Shown: in pieces, positions 13,886 through 59,820 of the stretch
Layout: the number at the start of each line of letters is the position of its first letter
Numbering within the stretch: position 1 is the first letter of the stretch
Origin: Ereboglobus luteus
GTDB lineage: Bacteria > Verrucomicrobiota > Verrucomicrobiia > Opitutales > Opitutaceae
Assembly: GCF_003096195.1 (NCBI RefSeq)
Contig: NZ_CP023004.1
Span: 1,096,501 to 1,160,500 of the forward strand
Length of the DNA stretch: 64,000 nt
Direction of reading: 5' to 3'
Translations under genes and position numbers: made by a program
The notes under the pieces: model-generated
Seen by the model: only the letters and a program-made list of their open reading frames with translations
Databases searched by the model: none
Told to the model about the DNA's origin: nothing

Positions 13886-15382
13886 TCACGCCGCCGCCTT
13901 CGCGTATTTTGCGATGATGCCGTCGAAGCTGCCGTTGCTGAAAAAGATCACGGCACGCGGATTCGAGGGATCTGCCGGAAGCGTGGCGGCGGTGAGTTTT
14001 TCGAGAAGCGCGATGTTGCTCGAAAACGCCCCGGCGCGGATGTCGCGCGCGGCGAGTTGTTGAATCACAGCGGCGGTGTCGAAGCGCTCGTCAGCTGAAA
14101 GTTTTTCGGCGCGGTTAACCGGGCCGAGATAAACTTCGTCGGCAAAAACAAGTGTGGCGGCAAAATCGTCTTGCAGTGCGCGCGTGCGCGCGGTGTTGCT
14201 GCGCGGTTCAAAAACCGCCGTGAGCGTTGCGCCGGGAAAACGGTTGCGAAATGATTTTAGTGTTTCGGCAATCGCGGTCGGATGATGCCCAAAATCCTCA
14301 ACCACGGTGAGCGCGGGAGTGGCGACAAGTGTTTCCTGACGGCGTTTCACTCCGCGAAAGCGGGCGAATGGCCCGGCGATGTGAAGACTCTCTTTGGGTG
14401 GGGCGAAGCCTCCGGTTAAGCCGAAATTGTTAGGAAAAACTAACGCTTGCGACTCAGCCGGAGGCTTTGCCCCGCCAAGGCTTAGCGCCGTCGCCACGGC
14501 CGCCATCGCGGCATTGCGGGCATTGTAAAGGCCGGGCGTGGCCATGCGGATTTTTGTCCACTCGGCACCGTTCCAGAGAAGCGTGAAGGATATGCCGTCC
14601 GCGTCCTCCGAAAAGTCGGCGATGCGCACAAAATTATTCTCGCCCGTGCCAACACCGAGGATTTTGCACCAGGTCACTTTTTCGACGACTTCGCAAAGGT
14701 TGGCATCGTCTCCATTAAAAACGATGGCGCCATTGCCCGGCACGAGGCGGGTGAGGTGCGTGAACGTGCGTTTCACGTCGGCGAGATCGCGAAAGATGTC
14801 GGCGTGGTCGAACTCGAGGTTGTTGAGGATGGCGACGCGCGGCGCGTAATGGATGAACTTGCTGCGCTTGTCGAAGAACGCGCTGTCGTATTCGTCGCCC
14901 TCGATCACAAAAGGATCGGCGGGCGCACCGAGGTGGTTGCCGACGGGCGGATCCTGCGGAACGCCGCCGATGAGAAAGCCGGGATCGCATCCGTTTTCCC
15001 GAAGGAGAAACGCCGTCATCGCGGTGGTGGTGGTTTTGCCGTGCGTGCCGCAGACGACGATGTTGTCGCGCCGGGCGAGGATGTGATCGTGCAGCAACGC
15101 GGGGAGCGACGTGAAGGGAATAGCGCGCCCGGCGAGAAGCCATTCGACCTCGGGATTGCCGCGCGACATCGCGTTGCCGATCACGACGAGATCGGGCGCG
15201 AGTTTTTCGAGGCGCGCGGGATCGTAGCCCTCGTGGAGCGAAATGCCCGCCGCCGCGAGCACGGTGCTCATGGGCGGATACACGCCGGAGTCGGCTCCGA
15301 GCACCTCGTGCCCGGCGGCGCGCACAAGCAGCGCCGCGTTGCCCATCGCCGTGCCGCAAATGCCCATGAAGTAAATTCGCAT
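13886..15382 (-). CDS. mpl: UDP-N-acetylmuramate:L-Ala-gamma-D-Glu-meso-DAP ligase (Mpl) with in-frame palindrome insert
   Basis: 498 residues. Mpl attaches recycled murein tripeptide to UDP-MurNAc. The start at 15382 (MRIYFMGICGTAMG) aligns with the family start; an in-frame ATG at 15400 would add six residues. Motifs seen are DSGVYPPMSTVL, the ATP P-loop VVCGTHGKTTTTAM near residue 110, EGDEYDSAFFDKRSKF and the late VVEDFGHHPTAIAETL. E. coli Mpl has about 457 residues. Most of the excess is one insert at about residues 300-329, encoded by a nested palindrome (see the repeat at 14393-14481), just before the conserved F-R-G-V-K-R-R-Q-E. The rest of the protein looks intact, so the insert is probably a tolerated surface loop. 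Confidence 0.92.
   Translation of the reverse strand: MRIYFMGICGTAMGNAALLVRAAGHEVLGADSGVYPPMSTVLAAAGISLHEGYDPARLEKLAPDLVVIGNAMSRGNPEVEWLLAGRAIPFTSLPALLHDHILARRDNIVVCGTHGKTTTTAMTAFLLRENGCDPGFLIGGVPQDPPVGNHLGAPADPFVIEGDEYDSAFFDKRSKFIHYAPRVAILNNLEFDHADIFRDLADVKRTFTHLTRLVPGNGAIVFNGDDANLCEVVEKVTWCKILGVGTGENNFVRIADFSEDADGISFTLLWNGAEWTKIRMATPGLYNARNAAMAAVATALSLGGAKPPAESQALVFPNNFGLTGGFAPPKESLHIAGPFARFRGVKRRQETLVATPALTVVEDFGHHPTAIAETLKSFRNRFPGATLTAVFEPRSNTARTRALQDDFAATLVFADEVYLGPVNRAEKLSADERFDTAAVIQQLAARDIRAGAFSSNIALLEKLTAATLPADPSNPRAVIFFSNGSFDGIIAKYAKAAA
14393..14481. repeat. Nested palindromic element inserted inside mpl
   Basis: Two arms of about 27 bases form an imperfect inverted repeat whose core is GGGGCGAAGCCTCCGG against CCGGAGGCTTTGCCCC (15 of 16 paired). 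The 30-base loop holds a second hairpin, GTTAG-gaaaaa-CTAAC. Its length keeps the mpl frame open and adds about 29 residues (GGAKPPAES... to ...GGFAPPKE). Confidence 0.8.
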
Positions 15383-30631: not shown

Positions 30632-30950
30632 GGTTTTGTGTTGAGGCGTTTAAAGCCCGACGATGAGTGGCATCCCGGCCTTTGCACACCATGGGTGACA
30701 CTGGATAAAAAAATTACATGAACACCAGCCAAAATCGTGACATTTTTTTTGAACGCGCGAGGCGCCGGAAACGCAAAGGGCGGCGCGCCGCAAAACCTTG
30801 CGGAACCAAACCGCCTCCGCGCAAGTCCGACAAACATCGACAAACATCGACAAACATCGACAAACATCGACAAACATCGACAAACACTCGCCTTGCACTC
30901 CGCCGACCAAACACCCATACATTTCCCTCACAGCCGATTCTCGAAACACC
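30632..30950. other. Intergenic region with a 10-bp tandem array
   Basis: About 320 bases between the divergent methyltransferase and small lipoprotein genes. Besides the tandem array at 30831-30886 it shows a GC-rich, Arg/Lys-codon-rich stretch (30745-30800). A plus-strand ORF at 30718-30954 runs through it and overlaps the lipoprotein start by ATGA, but has no recognisable features. No clear promoter was assigned. Confidence 0.5.
30831..30886. repeat. 10-bp tandem repeat array, CAAACATCGA x5 plus a partial copy
   Basis: Five perfect contiguous copies of CAAACATCGA (30831-30880) and a sixth that diverges after six bases. The unit length is one helical turn, so every copy presents the same face. 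It lies 65 bases ahead of the small lipoprotein start. Confidence 0.95.
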
Positions 30951-31930: not shown

Positions 31931-31968
31931 TGCGCATCCCTAACTCGCAATTCACCCGCATGCTTTTG

Positions 31969-32068
31969 AATTCTCGATTTTGTATTGGGAGCTTTCGCTC
32001 CGTTTTCGTTTCGAGCCCCGCGCGGTAGCGCGCAATCCAAAATCGAGAATCCAAAATCCAAAATAACA
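31969..32068. repeat. Inverted repeat (family E-like) upstream of ppx/gppA
   Basis: ATTCTCGATTTTG-TATTG at 31970 pairs with CAATC-CAAAATCGAGAAT at 32033 (17 of 18), enclosing two smaller hairpins (GGAGCTTTCGCTCC and a GCGCG stem). It is followed by CCAAAATCC words that recur in the element at 47427. It fills the whole rsmI-ppx gap. Confidence 0.8.
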
Positions 32069-47426: not shown

Positions 47427-47590
47427 AAATCTCAAATCACGAAATCCCAAATCCCAAATAAATTTCAAACTCCAAAATCTCAAATCACAAAAGAAAACCA
47501 ACGGAACCGAGGCCGGGCGCCTGCGTTGAGATTTTGTGATTTTGTCGGTTGGAATTTATTTGGGATTTGGGATTTGGGAGTTTGTGATTT
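47427..47590. repeat. Long imperfect inverted repeat (family E) in lipoprotein cluster
   Basis: Two arms of about 65-70 bases made of CAAATCCCAAATC-type words on one side and GATTTGGGATTTGG on the other, with a GC-rich centre (GAGGCCGGGCGCC). Arms pair over most of their length with gaps. It fills the gap between the COG3014 gene and its neighbour. The same CCAAAATC words occur at 32033-32065. Confidence 0.9.
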
Positions 47591-52121: not shown

Positions 52122-52133
52122 CTGCCGCCCTGT

Positions 52134-52260
52134 TTTCAAACCATTCAACCACGGAGAACACTGAGAGACACAGAGCCAAGCCAATGGAATATTCAACCCA
52201 TGCAATTCGTCCCGATTTTCTCCTCTCCGTGCTCCTCCGCGACCTCCGTGGTTAATTAAT
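52134..52260. repeat. Family A palindromic repeat (copy 1), nuoB-nuoC gap
   Basis: Begins TTCAACCACGGAGAACACTG and ends with CTCCGTGGTTAATTAATT, so the outer arms AACCACGGAG/CTCCGTGGTT pair perfectly. Inner copies of the CCGTG word extend the stem imperfectly. Centre is variable. Confidence 0.9.
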
Positions 52261-52287
52261 TTCATATTCAAATTTTCAATTTTTCCC

Positions 52288-56327: not shown

Positions 56328-56456
56328 TTTTCCAAACCAATCAACCACGGAAAACACGGAGCAACACAGAGCCAAGCCAATGAAGCACCCATCGCCATGT
56401 CTCCTCTTACTTTCCTCCTCTCCGTGCTCCTCCGTGCCCTCCGTGGTTAATTAATT
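56328..56456. repeat. Family A palindromic repeat (copy 2), nuoH-nuoJ gap
   Basis: Outer arms AACCACGGAAAACACGGAG and CTCCGTGCCCTCCGTGGTT, ending TTAATTAATTC. Same central layout (ACACAGAGCCAAGCCAATGAA) as copies 1 and 3. Confidence 0.92.
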
Positions 56457-56473
56457 CCGAAACCGCATTTCCC

Positions 56474-57004
56474 ATGTCCCTCTCGCTTCTCATCTTCATC
56501 CTCATCGCCATTGCCACGCTTGGCTCGGCGGCGGTCGCGCTCGCGTTGAAAAACATCATCCGCGCGGCGCTCCTGCTTGTCGTGAGCTGGATCGGCATCG
56601 CGTCGTTTTACCTGTGGGCCGACGCGCAATTCGTGGCCTTCGCGCAAGTGCTCGTTTATGTCGGCGCCATCTCGATGATCGTTCTCTTTGGCGTCGTGCT
56701 CACGCGCCGCGCGCCCGTCAGCGTTGTTGACACCACCGTCACGCCCTCGATGCGCGCGGTCGCCGGGGTCGCCTCCGCCGGGCTCGTCGCGCTCGCCGTC
56801 GTCTGGGGAATTCTCGGCACCGAGCTGCCGCAAACATCATCGCGCGCCGCCGCGCCCGTCGTGGACATGCGCGCGATCGGCCTCGAACTCATGGGCCAAT
56901 ACGCCGCCGCCATCCTCATCGTCGGCGCGCTCCTCACCGTCGCGCTCCTCGGCTCCGTCGTTGTCGCTTCTCATGAAGAGAAGCTAATGAAAAATGAAGA
57001 ATGA
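56474..57004 (+). CDS. nuoJ: NADH-quinone oxidoreductase subunit J
   Basis: 176 residues, five membrane helices. Typical start SLSLLIFILIAIATLGSAAV and the helix-3 segment FVAFAQVLVYVGAISMIVLF with pi-bulge region. The final residues (EEKLMKNEE) and the stop are encoded by the first bases of a family-B repeat, so the C-terminus appears to have been rewritten by the repeat. Operon order here is H-J-K. Confidence 0.94.
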   Translation: MSLSLLIFILIAIATLGSAAVALALKNIIRAALLLVVSWIGIASFYLWADAQFVAFAQVLVYVGAISMIVLFGVVLTRRAPVSVVDTTVTPSMRAVAGVASAGLVALAVVWGILGTELPQTSSRAAAPVVDMRAIGLELMGQYAAAILIVGALLTVALLGSVVVASHEEKLMKNEE

Positions 57005-57101
57005 AAAATGAAGAATCAGGAGAAGGCCTCCGGCTAATCCGAAAAAGCAACCGACGACGCATGCGCCATTATCCATTATACATTTTAAATTATACATTTT
57101 C
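56982..57101. repeat. Family B AT-rich palindromic repeat (copy 2), nuoJ-nuoK gap
   Basis: Left arm TAATGAAAAATGAAGAATGA overlaps the nuoJ stop; right arm ATTATACATTTTAAATTATA-CATTTTC. Centre carries AAGGCCTCCGGCTAATCC, a word also seen in the mpl palindrome arms. Confidence 0.85.
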
Positions 57102-57423: not shown

Positions 57424-57552
57424 TTTTCAAACCAATCAACCACGGAGAACACGGAGAAACACAGAGCCAAACCCATGAAGAATTTAACTCATGCAACCCG
57501 TCTCCTTTTCCGCCTCTCCGTGCTCCTCCGTGCCCTCCGTGGTTAATTAACT
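57424..57552. repeat. Family A palindromic repeat (copy 3), nuoK-nuoL gap
   Basis: AACCACGGAGAACACGGAG at the left, CTCCGTGCCCTCCGTGGTTA at the right. It is the most regular copy and begins two bases after the nuoK stop. Confidence 0.93.
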
Positions 57553-57579
57553 CCGAGAAAAATTTCCAAAACACTCTTC

Positions 57580-59670
57580 ATGCTTTCCGCAAAATACATC
57601 TGGCTCATTCCGTTGCTTCCGCTCATCTCCGCGGCAATCGGGACATTCCTCCCGCGCGGCGGCAGCTCGCGCAAAATCGCCTCCGCCTCCGCGATCCTCT
57701 CGATGGCCGCCGGATTTGTGCTCTCGTGCCTCGCGCTCCGCGGCGCGCTCGCCAATCCCGCCGCGCACGACACTTGGAATTTTCGCTGGCTCGATTTCGG
57801 CGCCACCACGCTCGAACTCGGTTTCATCAATGACCCGCTCACCGCGTTCATGCTCGTGATGGTGACGTTTGTCGGTTCGCTCATTTTTATTTTCAGCACC
57901 GGCTACATGAGGGAGGACGCCAACGCCGCGAAGTTTTTCTGCTACCTCTCGTTCTTCGCCGCCGCGATGCTAGGCCTCGTCGTTTCCAACAGCCTGCTTC
58001 TCCTCTTCGTGTGCTGGGAACTCGTCGGGCTCGCCTCGTATCTGCTCATCGGTTTCTGGTTCACAAAACCCGCCGCCGCGGCCGCCGCGAAAAAAGCCTT
58101 CATCACCACGCGCATCGGCGACCTCGGCCTGCTCATCGGCATCTGCTGGCTCTACAACGCCGGGGGCACGCTGCTATTCTATGACGGCGGCAACGGGTTT
58201 CTCGAAACCAGCGTCCTCGGGGCACTCACCGTCGTGCTGCCTTGCGGACTTGCCGTCTCGACCGCAATCGGCCTCCTCATCTTTTGCGGCGCGGTTGGCA
58301 AATCAGGCCAGTTCCCGCTGCATGTCTGGCTCCCCGACGCGATGGAAGGCCCGACACCCGTCTCCGCGCTCATCCACGCCGCAACAATGGTCGCGGCTGG
58401 TGTGTTTCTCATTGCCCGCGTTTATCCGCTCATGGCGCTGGATCAGGCCAACATTTTACGTGATGGATTCGATGCCGTGCTCAGTGGAGCGCCTCTCGAA
58501 ATTTATTCCTCCACCGGTATCAAGGCCCTCACCGTCGTCGCCATCATCGGCGCAATCACCGCGCTCTTCGGCGCGGTCGTCGCCGTGGCACAAAACGACA
58601 TCAAGCGCATCCTCGCGTTTTCAACCGTCTCCCAACTCGGCTACATGATGCTCGCCATCGGCGTCGGCGCGTGGCCCGTGGCGATCTTCCATCTTCTCAC
58701 GCACGCGTTTTTCAAGGCGCTGCTCTTCCTCGGCGCGGGCAGCGTCATCCACGCCGCGCATCACGAGCAGGACATCCGTTATCTCGGCGGACTCGCCCCG
58801 CGCATGAAAATCACCTTCGCCACCTTTGCCATCGGCATGATGGCGCTCGCCGGCGTGCCGTTCCTCTTCTCCGGTTTCTGGTCGAAGGAAGGCATCCTCA
58901 ACGCCGCCTTCGAGTGGGGCTATAATTATAATGCCATACCTTTTGTCGCCGCTCTCATTGCCGTCATTCTCACCGCCTTCTACATGACGCGCCTCGTGTG
59001 CGAAGTTTTCTTCGGTAAAGCCCGCTCGCACGCTGCCGAACATGCGCACGAAAACAACCCCGCGATGACCGTGCCACTTATACTTCTCGCCATTTGTTCA
59101 ATCGGTCTCGGTTTTCTCGGTATGCCATCATGGCCTTGGATCCAATCAATGCTTGAAGGCATTCCTTCCGATAAAATTCACGCCCACTCTGGCGAATCAA
59201 TTGTCATGGTTGCTTCCATCGTGCTCGTCGCGCTCGGCATCGGCGTTGGTTGCGCGCTCTATTATTTCCTGCGCAAACGCAACACCACCGGCGAACTCGA
59301 CCCGCTCGAAAAAGCCGCGCCCGCGCTCTGGACCGCGCTCGCCAACCGCCTTTACTTCGACGAACTCTACGCCGCGACCTTCGGACGCCTCTTCGACGCC
59401 ATCGCGTGGCTCTCCGACGCGTTCGACCGCCACGTTTGGGGCGGCCTCATAAACCTGATCGGCGGCCTCGGCCTGTTCGCTGGCGGCGTGAACCGCGAGT
59501 TCGACGAAAACACCCTCAACGGCGGTTTCGACACCGTGAGCGAGGACCTCCGCAAAACCGGCAAGGCATACAGCCGCGCCCAAACCGGCGACGCCCACGG
59601 CTACCTCCGCACCATGGCCCTCGGCTTCGCCGGTCTCATCGCAATCGTAATCCTCATCGTCGCCATCTGA
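57580..59670 (+). CDS. nuoL: NADH-quinone oxidoreductase subunit L
   Basis: 696 residues, antiporter-like subunit at the distal end of the membrane arm. Seen are LFVCWELVGLASYLLIGFWF (conserved Glu of helix 5), FPLHVWLPDAMEGPTPVSAL and LIHAATMVAAGVFL (channel residues), KRILAFSTVSQLGYMMLA and FFKALLFLGAGSVIHA. It is clearly longer than E. coli NuoL (613). The extra length is in the C-terminal part, where the lateral helix and its anchor lie (about residues 540-696). A lengthened NuoL helix is reported for complexes with two NuoM. Confidence 0.95.
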   Translation: MLSAKYIWLIPLLPLISAAIGTFLPRGGSSRKIASASAILSMAAGFVLSCLALRGALANPAAHDTWNFRWLDFGATTLELGFINDPLTAFMLVMVTFVGSLIFIFSTGYMREDANAAKFFCYLSFFAAAMLGLVVSNSLLLLFVCWELVGLASYLLIGFWFTKPAAAAAAKKAFITTRIGDLGLLIGICWLYNAGGTLLFYDGGNGFLETSVLGALTVVLPCGLAVSTAIGLLIFCGAVGKSGQFPLHVWLPDAMEGPTPVSALIHAATMVAAGVFLIARVYPLMALDQANILRDGFDAVLSGAPLEIYSSTGIKALTVVAIIGAITALFGAVVAVAQNDIKRILAFSTVSQLGYMMLAIGVGAWPVAIFHLLTHAFFKALLFLGAGSVIHAAHHEQDIRYLGGLAPRMKITFATFAIGMMALAGVPFLFSGFWSKEGILNAAFEWGYNYNAIPFVAALIAVILTAFYMTRLVCEVFFGKARSHAAEHAHENNPAMTVPLILLAICSIGLGFLGMPSWPWIQSMLEGIPSDKIHAHSGESIVMVASIVLVALGIGVGCALYYFLRKRNTTGELDPLEKAAPALWTALANRLYFDELYAATFGRLFDAIAWLSDAFDRHVWGGLINLIGGLGLFAGGVNREFDENTLNGGFDTVSEDLRKTGKAYSRAQTGDAHGYLRTMALGFAGLIAIVILIVAI

Positions 59671-59672
59671 TT

Positions 59673-59791
59673 TTTAACCACGGAGAACACGGAGTAACAC
59701 AGAGCCAAACCAATGAAACACTCACTGCCGCATCCTTTCTTCCTTTTTCTTCTCTCCGCGCTCCTCCGCGCTCTCCGTGGTTAATTAATTC
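59673..59791. repeat. Family A palindromic repeat (copy 4), nuoL-nuoM gap
   Basis: AACCACGGAGAACACGGAGTA on the left; CTCCGCGCTCTCCGTGGTTAA on the right, with a family-D word block directly attached. Confidence 0.9.
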
Positions 59792-59820
59792 CGCACTCCG
59801 AAATCCGCATTCCGCATTTT
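59788..59820 (+). repeat. Family D word block ahead of first nuoM
   Basis: TTCCGCACTCCG-AAATCCGCATTCCGCATTTT. It is joined to the end of family A copy 4 and ends two bases ahead of the GTG start. Confidence 0.75.

Follow-up and report, generated by a model that had tools for sequence, protein, structure and literature searches.

REPINs consist of two inverted REP sequences that form a hairpin together with the spacer between them; the REPs carry a GTAG or GTGG head, copies are dispersed in the genome, and the associated RAYT gene is bracketed by the same REPs (PMC3116915; RAYTs, PMC2817692). They have been described as extragenic (PMC3116915). The main text of PMC3733652 reports intragenic GTAG REPs, which were richest in Opitutus terrae, often formed dimers encoding 20-30 residues and often lay in DNA-repair genes; it also describes one case, recB of two Xanthomonas species, in which the REPs differ but occupy roughly the same position. 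In-frame palindromic inserts in functional protein genes are known as well from the Rickettsia palindromic elements, of which RPE-4 and RPE-6 are assigned in that text to the CGTC class, a class of repeats that it does not tie to transposase genes.

The locus studied here lies in a 64,000-nt stretch of the Ereboglobus luteus genome (the window). A nested palindrome of 89 bases had been annotated at 14393-14481, and it is present there. This palindrome is a REPIN, built of two GTAG-class REPs in inverted (HH) orientation, although the element proper is only 78 nt long, the outermost TTGG/CCAA pairs being host sequence (Table 1). Each arm is an imperfect palindrome in its own right, and the heads of this copy are somewhat decayed (GTGG and GCGG). 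The inner GTTAG/CTAAC hairpin (14429-14433 / 14440-14444), also annotated before, is real but is part of a non-conserved spacer, and other copies have different spacers. On both strands none of 200 shuffles folded as well, either as DNA (z -3.75) or as RNA (z -5.8), and the inverted-repeat score exceeded all 200 codon shuffles. Terminator-like hits between 13700 and 15800 all fell outside the element and the promoter search found none, so a terminator or promoter role was rejected. An Rfam search of the element gave no match at the gathering score, with sub-threshold chance hits to hairpin models only. An attC-like reading was dropped, the order of the R-boxes being wrong.

Table 1. Features of the mpl locus, of the window and of the Mpl loop in Opitutaceae (positions are those of the window)
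Feature	Position or genomes	Strand	Basis or remark
mpl, UDP-N-acetylmuramate:L-alanyl-gamma-D-glutamyl-meso-diaminopimelate ligase (murein peptide ligase)	13886..15382	-	TIGR01081, 3hn7, Foldseek; frame open to about 15382
REPIN (HH REP dimer), in frame in mpl	14398..14475	.	pattern and BLAST copies, hairpin model, missing from most relatives
Left REP arm, GTGG-GGC-GA-AGCC-TCC-GGTT-AA-GCC	14398..14422	+	head GTGG, not GTAG
Spacer of 28 nt with private inner hairpin	14423..14450	.	27-30 nt spacer class of the family
Right REP arm, GCGG-GGC-AA-AGCC-TCC-GGCT-GA-GTC	14451..14475	-	sequence
Possible decayed single REP arm (GGCCTCCGGCTAATCCGA)	57020..57042	+	resemblance over about 18 bp
Mpl insert family, same as E. 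luteus element	g1, g27, probably g60		
Mpl insert family GTAGCGCAGGCTTCCAGCCTGC	G001		
Mpl insert family CCTGACCTTGTGTCAGGC	second insert of G002		
Mpl insert family, GATTTTCGATT-type	G068, G098		no GTAG head
Mpl insert family GGTGGAGCGYGACCTCC	G004, G100		
Mpl insert family, GGTGGAGCGCGTTGAC-type	G019		
Mpl insert family, GTAGATCGGG-type	G065		

The gene, which encodes an enzyme that recycles cell-wall material, appears otherwise intact, as the first-pass annotation had noted. Its frame is open, its product matched the TIGR01081 profile with 385.4 bits, slightly below the cut-off of 388.7 and with the match split at the insert, and it aligned to the solved Psychrobacter Mpl structure 3hn7 (E 8e-83), which was also the top Foldseek match. 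The conserved Mur-ligase motifs were intact in an alignment of 36 sequences. The added residues are in frame as proposed, but the element encodes residues 302-328 and the net gain over the usual loop is about 24 codons, compared with the 29 or so that had been estimated. In the AlphaFold model (mean pLDDT 90.3) the insert sits in a predicted disordered loop between the predicted helices 284-300 and 335-340, and residues 304-324 have pLDDT values below 50. Among 29 Opitutaceae Mpl proteins that we measured, the segment before this loop (about 282 residues) and the one after it (about 137) are of nearly constant length apart from two or three outliers, and variation in length is concentrated in the loop itself. 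Mpl of a sister species (G003) is 97% identical and has the same insert. Between the two species 5 of 93 nt differ in the insert and 27 of 1392 nt in the rest of mpl (Poisson P ~0.04, calculated by hand), and two of the four changed codons in the insert are non-synonymous. This faster change, seen in one pair of sequences, suggests relaxed constraint on the insert.

A genome-wide search showed the arm to be repeated at dispersed sites: two pattern searches gave 57 and 69 hits, and neither control gave any. With BLAST and pattern searches that included flanking sequence, we gathered approximately 62 elements of the family from the single 4.17 Mb contig of E. luteus. The arm consensus is GTAG-GGC-GA-N4-TCC-N4-GA-GCC; its TCC loop and GA/GA mismatch hardly vary, and the stem occurs in three main compensating states (AGCC/GGCT in 28 copies, ACCG/CGGT in 26 and ACCC/GGGT in 23). 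Many arms are paired with their heads outward. In the 35 pairings listed, the spacers were mostly 10-13 or 27-30 nt, conserved in length and not in sequence. The family thus shows the features by which REPINs are recognised, namely a GTAG or GTGG head on an imperfect palindrome, an inverted heads-out pair that forms a hairpin, and many dispersed copies. Most of the elements have no open reading frame running through them, that is, they are mainly intergenic. About ten other genes carry copies in frame, so that these and the mpl copy depart from the extragenic description of REPINs. The hosts that Pfam supports are metH, mnmG (with two copies) and genes for a penicillin amidase, a UvrD-type helicase, a RecN/SMC-type ATPase, an SNF2 helicase and a ferrochelatase. 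Other copies fall within a gene for a PHP-domain protein and close to the end of one for an EpsH exosortase. The two REPINs in mnmG (gidA) are separate, in-frame insertions (G000:C1:1370053-1371101, outside the window; L281, L022).

Y1 transposases were searched for in the E. luteus genome and in seven further genomes. In the sister species, a 152-aa RAYT (NF047646, 94.4 bits; cut-off 80) is flanked on both sides by REPINs of the family found in mpl, the whole REPtron spanning no more than 650 bp, and the stop codon of the RAYT is the TAG of the downstream REP head. The bracketing of a cognate RAYT by its own REPs is thus found in the sister species. The corresponding site in E. luteus is occupied by a TPR-like gene. 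None of the six Y1_Tnp loci of E. luteus was flanked by REPs of this family, and the closest RAYT there was 44% identical and bracketed by different REPs. Related RAYTs in other Opitutaceae are bracketed by REPs of similar design with other stems (for example GTAGGGCGAGTTCTCCGAACGAGCC in G116 and GTAGGGCGAGGCCTCCGGCCGAGCC in G031), and in G001 one RAYT shares its REP with the Mpl insert of that genome (GTAGCGCAGGCTTCCAGCCTGC). From the association of RAYT and REPIN in the sister species, we infer that such a RAYT moved the element into mpl.

Outside the window, an open frame of 744 aa (L142, G000:C1:2076922-2080152) has creatininase matches that flank an entire REPtron (REP dimer, RAYT, REP dimer) free of stop codons, which places the transposase in frame with the host protein, and the sister species has the same arrangement (L318). 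In G001 (L320) and G026 (L328), a RAYT and a chorismate-binding enzyme share a single open frame. In G116 a REP-bracketed RAYT lies approximately 75 bp downstream of mpl (G116:C5:82962-84964; L190, L341), whose loop carries a decayed REP-like insert.

We surveyed 85 Opitutaceae Mpl proteins with a readable loop. The usual loop has about 35 aa, mostly 33-37, and 73 of the 85 have no insert of this kind. Each of the 12 loops with at least 55 aa contains repeat-derived sequence; in 11 of them the inverted repeat exceeded all 200 codon shuffles, and the remaining one is the apparent decayed case of G116. By the same measure no loop among the 18 with 39-51 aa beat all 200 shuffles, and a significant inverted repeat (at most two shuffles as good) was found in 1 of 55 short loops. 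The inserts belong to approximately seven unrelated repeat families (Table 1) in six genera, or seven with the decayed case. Most of these families are repeats dispersed in the genomes that carry the inserts; those of G019 and G065 were seen repeated in relatives. Counted from families and genera, with no tree reconstruction, there were at least eight separate insertion events. Within g17, G019 has an insert and G082 has none; thus, some insertions are recent. No insertion was seen elsewhere in the Opitutaceae Mpl proteins surveyed. The presence of unrelated hairpins in the same loop of relatives marks it as a repeatedly used, tolerated landing spot. Since every examined member of the genus has some insert, neither an exact empty site nor a target duplication could be defined for the mpl insert of E. 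luteus. In the loop of G002 Mpl (L207), a span of 148 residues combines a REP pair with a proline-rich stretch and another dispersed palindrome, each of them in frame.

The mpl element is very probably a selfish, non-autonomous REPIN that was spread by a RAYT, inserted into mpl and has been tolerated there. It is an inverted pair of GTAG-class REP hairpins that would have been mobilised by a transposase of the HUH/Y1 type, presumably through single-stranded DNA, and its insertion would predate the split from the sister species. Its survival may be due to three properties: its length of 78 nt is divisible by three, the canonical left arm has no stop codon in two of its three frames, and added residues could be accommodated by the loop that separates the last helix of the central domain from the next helix. 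It probably confers no benefit on Mpl. The eight or more insertions of about seven families would then reflect repeated tolerance and not descent. Both a REPIN and its presence in frame are of a known kind. The closest precedent in the main text of PMC3733652 is O. terrae, of the same bacterial family, with HH dimers in open reading frames and several DNA-repair genes among the hosts. The recB case described there involves two species of one genus, and the Mpl loop, where about seven repeat families have inserted across at least six genera, goes well beyond it; that main text makes no mention of mpl, and a hot spot of several families in Mpl is new so far as the literature was searched. Although the Rickettsia elements are likewise in-frame inserts, they differ in lineage and sequence, and the GTAG-class arms of the E. 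luteus element set it apart from them under the class definitions of PMC3733652. The Mpl loop thus amounts to a natural replicated experiment in the conversion of selfish repeats to protein sequence, with at least eight insertions and close relatives that lack them. This loop offers a way to test an issue that dates back to the Rickettsia elements, namely whether insertions of this sort are ever useful or no more than tolerated.

That the loop is a favoured landing pad, to which unrelated mobile hairpins are drawn or in which hairpins are selected for, is doubtful. If it were so, for instance through translational pausing at the domain boundary, the convergent capture of selfish hairpins would give rise to new protein segments. 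A true target hot spot, in which RAYTs or other machinery prefer a DNA feature of the site and insertion itself is concentrated, could account for so many insertions in one loop and none elsewhere in Mpl, and the G116 RAYT close to mpl fits it. We consider it unlikely, given that the families are unrelated and some have no GTAG head (the GATTTTCGATT type of G068 and G098), which makes one shared target preference improbable; the same loop has also been lengthened elsewhere by non-palindromic sequence (loops of 39-51 aa), and survival alone explains the pattern. The insert might instead be kept because it is useful, with an mRNA hairpin that slows ribosomes for folding at the domain boundary, or with the residues as a disordered linker. 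Its RNA hairpin is highly stable (-56.4 kcal/mol) and directly precedes the start of the C-terminal domain, hairpins of unrelated sequence recur at this spot and the frame is kept in two species; however, most loops manage without one, short loops show next to no significant inverted repeats, and the insert differs between the two species in a manner that suggests relaxed constraint, so that a function of this kind is quite improbable. We give little credence to a MITE with the terminal inverted repeats of a DD(E/D) insertion sequence. The inverted arms around a short non-coding middle speak for one, but each arm forms a fold of its own with compensatory changes, the middle is unconserved in sequence yet falls into two length classes, and these arms also bracket the cognate transposase, which is a RAYT. 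An ancestral protein loop whose DNA is palindromic by chance, for which only the sharing of the insert by two species speaks, is refuted for practical purposes by the dispersed, mostly intergenic copies of the arm and by relatives that, far from all sharing the loop with different codons, mostly have short loops and in some cases unrelated palindromes.

A part of the arm had also been said to recur in a repeat at 57025, as a hint of a shared element. The match is real, but it is a lone stretch of about 18 bp without a GTAG head or partner arm, and a shared element was not established. The window contains other repeats. A longer palindrome-like repeat (AACCACGGAGAACACGGAG ... CTCCGTGGTTAATTAA) is present in four copies, at 52133-52280, 56343-56475, 57424-57571 and 59662-59809. 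AT-richer inverted repeats (AAATCCCAAATCCC; TTTTGAATTCTCGATTTTG) at 47427-47590 and 31964-32056 are similar in style to the GATTTTCGATT palindromes in Mpl of G068 and G098, and a 10-bp unit, CGACAAACAT, forms a tandem array at 30818-30896.
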